Part shown: positions 29,583 through 45,090 of the stretch, in pieces
How the letters are laid out: the number at the start of each line of letters is the position of its first letter
Position numbering within the stretch: the first letter of the stretch is position 1
DNA from: Chloroflexota bacterium
GTDB lineage: Bacteria; Chloroflexota; Dehalococcoidia; Lucifugimonadales; Australimonadaceae
Assembly: GCA_027618515.1 (NCBI GenBank)
Contig: JAQCEV010000011.1
Location: 1 to 45,405, forward strand
Direction: 5' to 3'
Length of the DNA stretch: 45,405 nt
Notes under the pieces: generated by a model
What the model saw: the letters and a program-made list of their open reading frames with translations, nothing else
What the model was told of the DNA's origin: nothing
Database searches by the model: none
Program-made: the position numbers and the translations under genes

Positions 29583-29657
29583 TGGTAGCGGGGGTTGGAC
29601 TCGAACCAACGACCTTCGGGTTATGAGCCCGACGAGCTGCCACTGCTCCACCCCGCA
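29583..29657 (-). tRNA. Initiator tRNA-Met (CAT anticodon)
   Basis: A full cloverleaf on the - strand with encoded CCA (29583-29585). The acceptor stem is TGCGGGG/CCCCGCT, with position 1 unpaired against 72 (T opposite T), as expected in initiator tRNAs, where C-A is usual. The anticodon stem TCGGG/CCCGA carries the three consecutive G-C pairs diagnostic of initiator tRNA around loop CTCATAA. The T arm is GTTGG-TTCGAGT-CCAAC. It lies 112 bp past the 23S 3' end and before a strong terminator, so it is probably co-transcribed with 23S rRNA. Confidence 0.95.
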
Positions 29658-29733
29658 CCGAATGGCATGGCCTAAATGGCGGCCAAATAGGAAATCGAGT
29701 GTTGCAACCGCGTCTTTGCGCGCTAACAAGGGG

Positions 29734-29759
29734 TATCGAGCGAGAGCGTTCTAAGGAAA
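29734..29759 (-). other. 3' strand of the 23S rRNA processing stem
   Basis: TATCGAGCGAG (29734-29744) and CTAAGGAAA (29751-29759) are exact reverse complements of two segments upstream of 23S (32814-32824 and 32795-32803). Together they form a long stem enclosing the 23S rRNA, the usual RNase III processing site. Confidence 0.85.
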
Positions 29760-29769
29760 GAAAAATATA

Positions 29770-32762
<2,993 letters not shown>

Positions 32763-40827: not shown

Positions 40828-41841
40828 CTAGTCCTGCGACAGAACGAACACCCAGAGCACTGCAGCCACATACACCGGCGGCAGCACGTAGATCGAGTGC
40901 CGGAACCACGCCAGCCATCGATCCTTGTAAGAACGAATGATGCCGTAGCCCGCAGCCATCAGGGCGATCGCCGCGCCTGCGGCAACGAAGTGCTCCGTCT
41001 CCATGAAGCCGAGCAGCGAATCCCTATTGCCCAGATCTGCGTAGAAGATCACTGACAGGTTGAACGCGCACGAACCGTAGATGTTGCCCAACACAAGCCC
41101 ATACGAGCGCCTGCGGGCCGCTGCGATGGTCACACTAGCCTCGGGGAGCGTCGTAACGATAGAAACGGCCAGGATGCCCATGAAACCGGCCCCCAGCCCC
41201 GTCGACTCCGCGATACCGCTCGCGCTCGCAGCCAGCAGTGGCGCAGTGAGGATGATTGCGAGCGAGGCCAACCCAAAGCCCATGAACGCTGGCTTCGCAG
41301 CGCTGATGCTTCCTGCGGGTTCGTCGCCATCCTCCACCTCGGCCTCGGATCGACCAGCGTCGTACACCAGCTTCATGCCGATGAAGTACGCCACGATCAT
41401 CACCAAGCCGCCTACGCTAGTCCAGCCCAGCGCGTAATCGCCCGTGGCCGCAAGGATCAAGGCCAAAACCCCGAGCCCCACAGAAACGAGCACCAAGACC
41501 TGCGTGTCCTTGGTCTGATCGGCGAACAGATTGCGCACACCGAAGATGAGCGCCACCAGAGACACCGTGAATATGTTGATCATATCGGCGCCGAACACGT
41601 TGCCCAGCGCTAAGCCAGGCTCATTCTCGCGAACGACCGCTGAGATATTCGTTACCAGCTCAGGAAGCGATGTCGCCACGCTGACAAGGATCGTGCCCAC
41701 CCAGAGCGCGCCCCAACCGGTTTTCTCGGCGATCTCGTCACCGTAACGAGCGAGGAACACACCAGCGATGACCACCACGAGTCCGCTGGCCAAGAAAACG
41801 GGAACCGACACTCCAAGACTGTCCACCGGATATGCCTCCAA
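40828..41841 (-). CDS. CaCA family sodium/calcium exchanger-like membrane protein
   Basis: A 337-residue protein with about ten helices and two inverted alpha repeats. The first repeat shows SVATSLPELVTNISAVVRENEPGLALGNVFGADMINI; the second shows SIVTTLPEASVTIAAARRRSYGLVLGNIYGSCAFNL. Each has the TSLPE/TTLPE acidic site and the GN..G element. An acidic cytoplasmic loop (RSEAEVEDGDE) lies between. It exchanges Ca2+ or another cation for Na+ or H+. The length fits the YrbG-type subgroup. It is transcribed leftward, after the cd1-like gene. Confidence 0.9.
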   Translation of the reverse strand: MEAYPVDSLGVSVPVFLASGLVVVIAGVFLARYGDEIAEKTGWGALWVGTILVSVATSLPELVTNISAVVRENEPGLALGNVFGADMINIFTVSLVALIFGVRNLFADQTKDTQVLVLVSVGLGVLALILAATGDYALGWTSVGGLVMIVAYFIGMKLVYDAGRSEAEVEDGDEPAGSISAAKPAFMGFGLASLAIILTAPLLAASASGIAESTGLGAGFMGILAVSIVTTLPEASVTIAAARRRSYGLVLGNIYGSCAFNLSVIFYADLGNRDSLLGFMETEHFVAAGAAIALMAAGYGIIRSYKDRWLAWFRHSIYVLPPVYVAAVLWVFVLSQD

Positions 41842-41908: not shown

Positions 41909-41975
41909 ATTGCCATCGAGCGCCCGCATTATAGCGTGGGCACTGCGCAGGTGCCCCCGCTAACTGCAATCTCGG

Positions 41976-42155
41976 TTAGTGGCCCAACTGCTCGTGCCTC
42001 CGTTCAACCGAGAAGATGCCCGTCGGTGTAGTGACCCCAGTCACCTCTGCAACCTTCTCAAGCGTCGTCGCGTCGTACACACGTACCACGTTGCCCGTCC
42101 AGTCGCTCACGTAGACCATCGAGCCGTCCTCGGTGAATTCAGGGTGCAGCGTCAT
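41976..42155 (-). pseudogene. Detached C-terminal part of the cytochrome cd1-like protein
   Basis: A 59-residue frame opening with MTLHPEFTEDGSMVYVSDW and closing with TTPTGIFSVERRHEQLGH. This is the last blade of a d1-type propeller: HPEFT.DG..V and PTGKFNV-like endings are typical of NirS. Its ATG overlaps the stop of the upstream part by 4 bp (ATGA). Adding one G to the five-G run at 42157-42161 would fuse the two frames. So it is either the true end of a frameshifted gene or, less likely, a separately translated piece. Confidence 0.78.
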
Positions 42156-43885
42156 GCCCCCTCCTCGATCACGCCTACGACTGCGAACGGCGCCTCCTTC
42201 TCGAAGACCGTGATGGTGTTGGACGGATTGCCGAACAGAGCGTCAGCCCACACATACGGGCTGTTCTCGGCCGCACGGATGAACAGCCCAGGCCCCGTCG
42301 TCTCGACGATCCCCACCACCACGTTCGTCGCAAGGTCCCAGATGGCCACCTTGCCCTCACCAGCGTGGGTTGTGGCCCCATACCAAGTACCGTCCGCCGT
42401 CCAGATAGCCCCTGAGCCGGGGTGTGGCGTATCGCCAGTCGGAATACGCTCCACGACCTCCACCTTGGCCACGTCGATCACCGCCATCCAGTCATCGACC
42501 TGGGATGCCAGGTAGAAATGCCTGTTATCGGCGCTCAGGAAGCCGTCGTGGAGGATGTGGCCAACGTTCGCGACCTTAGTGATAGGGAACGACGGGTCAG
42601 AGTAGTCGATCCGCCACACCTGTCCCGCCTCTTTCAGCGCGATCAGGAAGTACGGCCCAACCAGGTTCGGCCCCACGTCTGACGTGATAGCAACGCGAGA
42701 GTCGACCTCAACGCCGTCCGGGTCAACGCCACGTGCCTGGATAACCGTCAGCGGCTCTAACGTCGCCGCGTCCATGATCACTGCGGTCGTGGGGATGAAA
42801 TTACCCGCGATCAGGTACTTCCCATCGCCAGAGATAGCCAGGCCCCGAGAGTCATGACCCACGCGCACCTTCCGCACCGCCTCCAGCGTGTACGCGTCTA
42901 TCGTGAACACCCACCCGTCACGGCCCACGTTGTAGAGCCAGCGATCATTAGTAGGATCGAATGCATAGCCATGCGCCCGGTAGCTGGCCGCGATGTGCCC
43001 GACGAGCTCGTGCGTGTCGCCGTCGATCGCCGCGATGCTACGCGCCTCGCGCTCGGTGACGAACATGAGATTGCCGAGGTCCGCGCCATGCGTTGGTGCA
43101 GACGGCAGCGTCGTTTCGTCCACCAACACTTCCAGCGACGCTTCCGCTTGAGCAAGCGTCCAATCAGCTACGGACGACTCTGGCTCGCTCCTGATGAACC
43201 CCACCAGACCCGCTATCTCCTCGTCACTCAGACCTAGCGCCCCCCATGCGGGCATGATCGTGCCTGGGCGACCGTCACGGATAATGCCGAAGTAGAACTG
43301 GTCGTTGGAGGTGAGCCTGCCAGGGATCAGCGCTGGGCCCACCGCCCCCTGTCGTTCGCTGCCATGACAACCACCGCAAGCATCTGCGAAGTACTTGTCG
43401 ATAGCCTGACCACCGTAATACTCCGGCGTGATCGCTCCACCCTGGCTGACCACGATCGTACCTAGCGTCGCGCCTGAGAGCGCGTCGTGGTACGTGAAGA
43501 TACCGGGGGAATCCGGCTGCCACGTAAACGACTCTCCAGCCGCGACAGCGTGGTCAAACCACCCATCGTCGCTGGAGAGTTGATACATCTCCTCTGCGTC
43601 GTTGCGCCACGTGATCGTCGCACCAACCGCCACCAACACAGTGCGTGGGCTTGAGGCCAACGCAGCGATGGACGGCTCAAGAACGCTCGTAGGGATCGTT
43701 GGCCCAGTGCCTGAGCCGCCTGAGGGCATCGTCGGTCGGCTCGGCGCATCAGGAGTCGGTTCAGTCACGGGCGTCGGGGTCGCTTCCGTAGACGAACACG
43801 CAGCCAGCAGGCCCATGAGTAAGATGAGTAATACGACACCCGCGAGGTGGACAAAACTCCTGCGGACCGGAGTTATATGTGACAT
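42152..43885 (-). CDS. Cytochrome cd1-like lipoprotein with cupredoxin-like and cytochrome c domains
   Basis: A 577-residue exported protein. The signal peptide ends at lipobox Cys30 (LLAAC); a Pro/Thr-rich linker follows. Residues about 70-147 form a cupredoxin-like domain (VGATITWRND, GIFTYHD, GTIVV) in which the copper ligands are missing. A cytochrome c domain has C170-x-x-C173-H174 and Met211 (TIMPAWG). From about 270 an eight-bladed d1-type propeller resembles NirS/NirN/NirF. It keeps His305 (RAHGY), close to the d1-iron ligand position, and His446 (LHDG) and His488 (TPHPG), 42 apart as in Pseudomonas NirS. It could reduce nitrite or carry out another d1-heme reaction. The ATG at 43885 follows AAAGGAGA. 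The end is frameshifted. Confidence 0.85.
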   Translation of the reverse strand: MSHITPVRRSFVHLAGVVLLILLMGLLAACSSTEATPTPVTEPTPDAPSRPTMPSGGSGTGPTIPTSVLEPSIAALASSPRTVLVAVGATITWRNDAEEMYQLSSDDGWFDHAVAAGESFTWQPDSPGIFTYHDALSGATLGTIVVSQGGAITPEYYGGQAIDKYFADACGGCHGSERQGAVGPALIPGRLTSNDQFYFGIIRDGRPGTIMPAWGALGLSDEEIAGLVGFIRSEPESSVADWTLAQAEASLEVLVDETTLPSAPTHGADLGNLMFVTEREARSIAAIDGDTHELVGHIAASYRAHGYAFDPTNDRWLYNVGRDGWVFTIDAYTLEAVRKVRVGHDSRGLAISGDGKYLIAGNFIPTTAVIMDAATLEPLTVIQARGVDPDGVEVDSRVAITSDVGPNLVGPYFLIALKEAGQVWRIDYSDPSFPITKVANVGHILHDGFLSADNRHFYLASQVDDWMAVIDVAKVEVVERIPTGDTPHPGSGAIWTADGTWYGATTHAGEGKVAIWDLATNVVVGIVETTGPGLFIRAAENSPYVWADALFGNPSNTITVFEKEAPFAVVGVIEEGA

Positions 43886-44067
43886 AGGTCTCTCCTTTGG
43901 TTCAAGTCTCTTTCTTTTTACTCTCCTAGGGTGAACCTGCTGTGAACCAAAGTCGCGCTCCGGTGAACGACCTGTGACAAGTGGTGTTCCGTTGAGCAAC
44001 AGGAGCAATCGGCGTACGATATTCGGCGCCCAGCCGGTTGCTAATACCGGCGCATAAGGAGGCCATC

Positions 44068-45090
44068 ATGGCAAGCAACCTGAGTGAACTCGCAGCCACA
44101 GCGAACGCGTTGGTGGCGCCCGCCAAGGGAATCCTCGCGGCGGATGAGAGCACAGGGACGATAGGAAATCGTCTCAAATCCATCAACGTCGAAAACACGG
44201 AACCAGCACGGCGTGCATACCGCGAGATGCTGTTCCGCACGGAAGGCGCTGCCAATTACGTGTCTGGCGTGATCCTGTTCGACGAAACCCTGCGACAAGC
44301 AGCCGCAGACGAAACGCCCATGGTCAACCTGCTCACCGACCAGGGAATCATCCCCGGCATCAAAGTAGACGCTGGCGCAAAGTCGCTCGCAGGCGGCGCG
44401 AACGGCGAATTGGTGACTGAGGGGCTAGACGGCTTGCGAGAGCGCCTCGCCGAATACCGACAAATAGGCGCCCGTTTCGCCAAGTGGCGCGCCGTCATCA
44501 CCATCGGCGACGGCATGCCGACCTCCACCTGCATCGAGGTCAACGCCCACGCACTGGCGCGCTACGCAGCGCTCTGCCAGGAAGCCGGGCTTGTCCCCAT
44601 CGTTGAGCCTGAAGTCCTCATGGATGGCGGCCACAGCATCGAGCGCGCCGAAGAGGTCACCGAGGCCACGCTTCGCGAGGTGTTCCGCCAGTTGGCCGCA
44701 CAGAACGTCGACCCTGAAGCCATCCTACTGAAGCCCAACATGGTCGTCTCTGGCTACGACCAATCGAACCGCGCTGGGGCAGCGGACGTTGCCGAGCGCA
44801 CCGTACGCGTGTTCCAGCACACCGTTCCCGCTTCCATGCCTGGGATCGTATTCCTGTCTGGCGGCCAGAACGACGAGGACGCCATCGTCAACCTCCAAGC
44901 CATCGCCGAGCGAGGCATCGCCGTGAAGGCACCGTGGCAGATCAGCTACTCGTACGGTCGCGGACTACAGGCCGCGCCGCTGAAGGCGTGGGGCGGCAAG
45001 CCGGAGAACGTACCAGCCGCGCAAGCCGCGTTCCTGGAGCGCTGCCGACTCACCAGCGCAGCTCGCGAAGCAACCTACTCCGCCAACTAG
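44068..45090 (+). CDS. Class I fructose-bisphosphate aldolase
   Basis: A 340-residue Schiff-base aldolase of the animal/plant-like type. It shows the family opening APAKGILAADESTGTIGNRL, then KWRAVI, VEPEVLMDG with the conserved Glu, and AILLKPNMVVSGYD with the Schiff-base lysine. SGGQNDEDAIVNL follows, then WQISYSYGRGLQAAPLKAW, forming the phosphate site. It cleaves fructose 1,6-bisphosphate in glycolysis or runs in reverse in gluconeogenesis, in the cytosol. AGGAGG precedes the ATG at 44068. It is a single-gene unit, divergent from the cd1-like gene. Confidence 0.96.
   Translation: MASNLSELAATANALVAPAKGILAADESTGTIGNRLKSINVENTEPARRAYREMLFRTEGAANYVSGVILFDETLRQAAADETPMVNLLTDQGIIPGIKVDAGAKSLAGGANGELVTEGLDGLRERLAEYRQIGARFAKWRAVITIGDGMPTSTCIEVNAHALARYAALCQEAGLVPIVEPEVLMDGGHSIERAEEVTEATLREVFRQLAAQNVDPEAILLKPNMVVSGYDQSNRAGAADVAERTVRVFQHTVPASMPGIVFLSGGQNDEDAIVNLQAIAERGIAVKAPWQISYSYGRGLQAAPLKAWGGKPENVPAAQAAFLERCRLTSAAREATYSAN

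Follow-up and report, generated by a model that had tools for sequence, protein, structure and literature searches.

A frameshifted cupredoxin-cytochrome c-D1 fusion gene with a degenerate copper site, inserted into a Chloroflexota genome

Cytochrome cd1 nitrite reductases (NirS) of Pseudomonas and Paracoccus (PDB 1nir, 1aof and 1dy7) join a cytochrome c to a D1 propeller, and carry a histidine ligand to heme d1, two active-site histidines and a methionine within an MPxW region. The same cytochrome c and D1 layout is found in NirN, the dihydro-heme d1 dehydrogenase (PDB 6rtd). In Chloroflexi, NirS also occurs outside nir operons behind N-terminal redox-domain fusions (the C1-C2-NirS proteins), some of them with a cupredoxin, and ORFs of the order cupredoxin-C1-C2-NirS were published in 2022 (PMC8756737); the C1-C2-NirS type of Chloroflexi corresponds to NirS clade 1g (PMC10999283). 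Fusion of a donor protein to a nitrite reductase is likewise known from the three-domain enzymes HdNiR and RpNiR, which carry a tethered cupredoxin or cytochrome c and in which the catalytic core is the copper enzyme NirK and not cytochrome cd1, and the role of tethered donor domains in copper nitrite reductases is disputed (PMC13324648). Here we describe a gene from the window (the whole 45,405-nucleotide stretch of DNA that was analysed) that is a variant of the known cupredoxin-cd1 fusion, standing in a separate clade with repeated loss of copper, and not a new kind of enzyme.

The encoded protein runs from a lipobox through a cupredoxin-like domain and a CxxCH cytochrome c to a d1-type propeller, an order that the first-pass annotation had proposed and that both Pfam and our reading of the sequence confirm (Table 1); a proline/threonine-rich linker is also present. 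The main ORF lies on the minus strand, from an ATG at 43,885 to a TGA at 42,154-42,152 (577 codons plus the stop), and scores 207.8 bits to Cytochrom_D1 (cut-off 25.5) and 41.8 bits to Cytochrome_CBB3, above the Pfam cut-off. The cupredoxin domain reaches only 14.9 bits to Cupredoxin_1, below the cut-off of 27. The motif CGGCH (residues 170-174) is the single CxxCH in the protein, and both it and IMPAWG are conserved in the alignment with relatives. The protein combines a Cytochrom_D1 match over cut-off, a CxxCH and Met cytochrome c, a d1-ligand histidine and two active-site histidines, all of them features shared with NirS. A match to the L-NosZ model NF052460 stayed at 40.8 bits against a cut-off of 700, and comparison with PHROGs gave no match. 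Elsewhere in the window, a complete 23S rRNA gene is followed by a tRNA gene (29,586-32,761, minus strand); no 16S gene was matched anywhere in the window.

Table 1. Features of the fusion gene and its surroundings, in window coordinates.
Feature	Position	Strand	Remarks
Cupredoxin-cytochrome c-D1 fusion gene	41976..43885	-	Two frames: 43885-42152 and 42155-41976
Signal peptide with lipobox LLAAC (Cys30)	43796..43885	-	From sequence reading
Cupredoxin-like domain, residues 79-146	43448..43651	-	All four type-1 copper ligands replaced
Cytochrome c domain, residues 164-233	43187..43396	-	CGGCH at 43364-43378; MPAWG with Met211
Cytochrom_D1 propeller, residue 269 onward	41976..43081	-	Closing part in second frame
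His305 (d1 ligand)	42971-42973	-	By alignment with NirS
His446	42548-42550	-	Aligns with NirS active-site His
His488	42422-42424	-	Aligns with NirS active-site His
Frameshift site GGGGGCATGA	42152..42161	-	One base fewer than relatives
Segment absent at the same place in same-genus genome G007	41940..43988		Single-gene insertion
CaCA-type cation exchanger	40831..41841	-	Left flank; 89% identical to, and adjoining the aldolase in, G007
Fructose-bisphosphate aldolase (class I type)	44038..45090	+	Right flank

The propeller belongs to the D1 type and not to the YncE/lactonase propellers that the first-pass annotation had named as the outcome that would overturn its assignment: the YNCE model gave 19.3 bits (cut-off 27.1) against 207.8 bits for D1. 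Among solved structures, the best sequence match was NirN at 189 bits, followed by NirS at 159 bits, and Foldseek with an AlphaFold model of the protein also placed NirN first. Overlay of this model on NirS, as the first-pass annotation had suggested, gave a VIA-align Z of 37.2, compared with 36.0 for NirN, 27.6 for NirF and at most 25.9 for unrelated propellers, from a model of mean pLDDT 65 in which most of the propeller reaches 70-95 and the cytochrome c domain is modelled poorly (under 50). We did not accept membership of NirN from the Foldseek rank alone because the motifs differ. In annotated NirS, NirN and NirF from plasmid nir clusters, which served as references for the motif alignment, NirS carries LHDG and PHPG, NirN (L/V)DDF and PHLG, and NirF PYDA and PHL. 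LHDG, PHPG and the d1-ligand histidine are present in every fusion member that reaches those sites; where the window protein has His446, as do the other members reaching the position, every NirN compared carries Asp and NirF carries Tyr, and NirF of the references also lacks the cytochrome c domain that the window protein possesses. The two active-site histidines singled out by the first-pass annotation (446 and 488) thus align with both of those in NirS, and the histidine that it placed near the heme-ligand position, His305, aligns with the NirS d1 ligand. On these motifs the window gene appears catalytically of the NirS type, and the NirN reading is disfavoured. A D1-domain ORF without CxxCH was also seen on the Natrinema plasmid CP031304 (L073:11167-12816, plus strand), where it is missing from the plasmid gene table; it may represent the haloarchaeal type of PMC10999283.

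Profile search of 396 genomes from one class, that of the genome of the relative L006, returned ten loci at 497-1221 bits, separated by a clear gap from 27 others that nearly all scored 241-295 bits. Scanned proteins of the lower-scoring group mostly have two CxxCH motifs, matching the published C1-C2-NirS fusions (PMC8756737), in contrast with the one cytochrome c (no C1) of the window protein; none of the four long C1-C2 proteins that we scanned showed a cupredoxin, which leaves this sample without the published cupredoxin-C1-C2 form. A maximum-likelihood tree built on the cytochrome c and D1 columns, with the near-copy L008 left out, placed 14 proteins including that of the window in one clade (support 99/96), apart from NirS plus C1-C2, from NirN and from NirF. 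The sampled C1-C2 proteins group with canonical NirS, whereas the fusion clade does not, and compared with NirS the window protein is only ~30% identical, is a lipoprotein and has an extra cupredoxin. Topology tests did not reject a grouping of the fusion clade with NirS and C1-C2 (p = 0.277) and did not clearly reject one with NirN (p = 0.062), so that the tree called for by the first-pass annotation yields a well-supported clade and leaves its nearest neighbour less firmly placed. The window gene belongs to a rare lineage whose other members are in Chloroflexota/Anaerolineae. Its layout is unlike that of standard NirS, as the first-pass annotation claimed, and the single-cytochrome fusion stands in a separate clade, but fusion with a cupredoxin had already been published (PMC8756737).

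The copper-less state of the cupredoxin domain, also noticed by the first-pass annotation, is borne out: the positions of the type-1 ligands His, Cys, His and Met read Tyr, Asp, Ser and Thr in the window. Copper sites are degenerate in many members of the fusion clade, which distinguishes it from the described C1-C2-NirS proteins. The complete H-C-H-M set is present in L003, L004, L080 and L084, with Copper-bind and Cupredoxin_1 both over cut-off in L080 and L084; L079 and L005 have partial sets, and no complete set is found in L006-L008, L077, L078, L081, L083 or the window. L082 has no cupredoxin domain, though it is close to the window in the tree, where it forms a set with the window and L083 (98/98). 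Copper state changes at least two times on the tree, and since regain of four ligands is unlikely this points to two or more losses. Compared with L003, whose copper site is complete, the cupredoxin stretch of the window is 47% identical. Structural positions such as Pro80, Gly88, Trp93, Asn95, Phe120, Trp122, Gly128 and Tyr132 are invariant in a seven-member alignment, so that the fold outlasted the loss of copper. Judged across the family, copper loss is a derived state as far as these sequences indicate, which could not be known from the window alone. Originally the domain probably donated electrons from copper within the same protein; in the window protein it is now probably a non-redox part, serving as a spacer or perhaps for docking. 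Separate genes of the plastocyanin/azurin family adjoin D1 genes in Azospirillum (L069:13581-13907, plus strand) and Ruegeria (L070:17542-17949, plus strand), which by analogy lends support to a donor role for the cupredoxin. In L083 (1501-3918, minus strand), a CarboxypepD_reg match below cut-off and dockerin-like repeats precede the copper-less cupredoxin.

The span given by the first-pass annotation encloses all of these domains but joins two frames, a frameshift that it missed. The frameshift cuts the closing part of the propeller, ~58 residues, from the main ORF; the tail frame encodes the last ~58-59 residues and a stop, and matches positions 318-367 of Cytochrom_D1, the last 50 of the model, at 39.9 bits. 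All 13 sampled relatives that reach this stretch (six relatives and seven further members) are open across it and finish in a common RR-x-E-x-x-GH motif, from which it follows that a single base has been lost from the window gene close to the G run at 42,157-42,161; L084, the eighth further member, is on a contig that ends before the stretch and was not counted. Among sampled members the frameshift is seen in the window copy only, and the base was either lost through a recent mutation or dropped in the assembly.

The gene sits in a single-gene insertion. G007 keeps the order coxBAC-ctaG-exchanger-aldolase at 82-96% identity, with exchanger and aldolase adjacent; DNA homology between the two genomes stops at 41,939 and restarts at 43,989, and 20 bases lie between these points in G007, so that ~2.05 kb carrying the fusion gene alone was inserted. 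The gene was absent from all 117 genomes examined from the same genus, family or order, in which weak matches cover single domains. Its source was probably Anaerolineae-like. Base composition of the insert does not look foreign (GC 0.623 versus 0.611), and no direct repeats longer than 6 bases were found at its ends.

The known route to heme d1 needs NirJ (PMC7242693). In the genome carrying the window, which is 93.8% complete, nothing matches D1 apart from the two pieces of the fusion gene, so that the D1 search revealed neither NirF nor NirN, and no NirJ-like protein scored above 57 bits; the weak NirJ matches are HpnH (the match at 57 bits) and MoaA. A search of the window's own taxonomic family brought up no AhbC/AhbD/NirJ-like radical SAM protein, and the related carriers G001, G003 and G004 are likewise without a clear NirJ. 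We did not count radical SAM proteins of G002 and G006 as NirJ, since they score best to AhbD and below its cut-off. The genome does encode SUMT and a fused AhbA-AhbB siroheme decarboxylase that matches AhbA and AhbB; no further d1 biosynthesis genes were found in it, which sets it apart from the NirS systems of Pseudomonas and Paracoccus. The fused gene (G000:C143, L013:9453-10532) is found in many genomes of the order, and its position beside SUMT/heme genes was rejected as nirS-linked d1 synthesis, as 23 of 59 genomes carry the fused gene, whether or not they have nirS. The lack of d1-heme synthesis genes that the first-pass annotation noted for the window thus extends across the genome as regards NirJ, NirF and NirN, and, as the known route needs NirJ, a supply of heme d1 is not evident. 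No heme-copper NO reductase was seen in the genome, the single heme-copper oxidase match being the window's coxA, and the Nar-like protein of L006 had no match there. On a Thermus plasmid, the gene after nirS encodes a TIGR04053 radical SAM protein (L071:11621-12748, plus strand), a candidate NirJ equivalent.

In L006-L008, a type II DMSO-reductase/Nar-like cluster stands upstream of the fusion gene, and genes for a NarQ/NarX-like kinase and a response regulator come after it. The gene of L005 also adjoins a NarQ/NarX-like kinase, and the genome of L005 encodes, at another location, an alpha subunit 84% identical to that of the cluster. These settings fit nitrate/nitrite respiration, short of proof of the substrate.

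The explanation that we favour, with somewhat better than even confidence, is that the gene is an acquired member of a NirS-type cd1 family that reduces nitrite, that its copper donor was lost and that this copy is frameshifted in a genome in which no NirJ, NirF or NirN was found. Horizontal transfer would have brought in a member of a small NirS-type cytochrome cd1 lineage, known otherwise from Chloroflexota/Anaerolineae, whose function is probably NO-forming nitrite reduction. From the conserved residues and by comparison with NirS, His305 would bind a d1-type heme at which nitrite is converted to NO, His446 and His488 would stabilise the substrate, and the protein's own heme c would pass electrons on to d1. 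The N-terminal cupredoxin probably began as a fused type-1 copper donor, a built-in pseudoazurin, that is intact in four sampled members, where electrons could pass from copper site to heme c to the d1 site; on at least two branches, one of them leading to the window, the ligands would have been lost and the fold-determining residues retained. As its cupredoxin is probably non-redox, electrons would have to enter heme c of the window protein from elsewhere. The copy itself may have turned into a pseudogene recently, or it may be a misassembled gene with an unexplained cofactor supply, and the frameshift and the lack of a visible d1 supply make its activity doubtful, in keeping with the first-pass annotation, which had left activity open. 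Counted against the favoured explanation are the missing NirJ, NirF and NirN, the rank of NirN as top match, the tree tests that allow a grouping with NirN as well as with NirS, and the poor cytochrome c model.

Several of these points would suit a protein that handles d1 in the manner of NirN or NirF, as a dehydrogenase or chaperone and not a nitrite reductase. NirN leads in both the sequence and Foldseek rankings, the d1-ligand context AHGY is closer to VHGG of NirN than to VHIS of NirS, and union with NirN in one clade is only marginally disfavoured; but the residues at the His446 position separate the fusion members from all NirN and NirF compared, the genome holds no nirS for such a protein to serve, and the sensor and Nar-like neighbours in relatives suit an enzyme better, leaving d1 handling unlikely. 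The chaperone option of the first-pass annotation accordingly loses ground on motifs, keeping what room the tree allows. Simple death of the window copy, a gene inserted without heme d1 supply and now frameshifted, deserves considerably more weight, if somewhat less than even, and is compatible with the favoured account of the family. Removal of the last propeller residues, the missing NirJ, NirF and NirN and the absence of the gene from 117 relatives all agree with it. On the other side, a single base missing from a G run is the kind of error that assemblies typically contain, conservation of the tail frame extends to its final residues, and the 577 codons hold no further stop or frameshift, so that any decay must be very recent.

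Use of a different tetrapyrrole in the D1 fold, or another redox task such as Fe(II) or NO chemistry, seems improbable for the fusion clade. No recognised NirJ occurs in several carriers and the genome has the AhbA-AhbB fusion, yet that fusion is spread through the order without nirS and so is not linked to the fusion gene, and the active-site residues of NirS are invariant in the sampled clade. Equally improbable, in our estimate, is the broader proposal that the clade is a third deep, competent D1 lineage which began as a self-donating copper/heme c/d1 protein and repeatedly dropped copper, with some hosts lacking the known NirJ/NirF route and perhaps employing another siroheme-derived tetrapyrrole. 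Least credible is an Ig-like spacer, recruited by itself, that never bound copper: the window and most sampled members do lack a complete ligand set, but four members retain all four ligands, two of these exceed the Copper-bind cut-off, and the cupredoxin domains align across the clade.

On the favoured explanation, a nitrite reductase lineage fused a donor domain, lost its metal at least two times and kept the domain, and would thereby serve as a natural experiment on the role of tethered redox domains. Published Chloroflexi fusions carry an extra cytochrome, and the single-cytochrome form represents a different clade, one that would be counted as nirS in surveys though a supply of heme d1 is not evident in several of its carriers.
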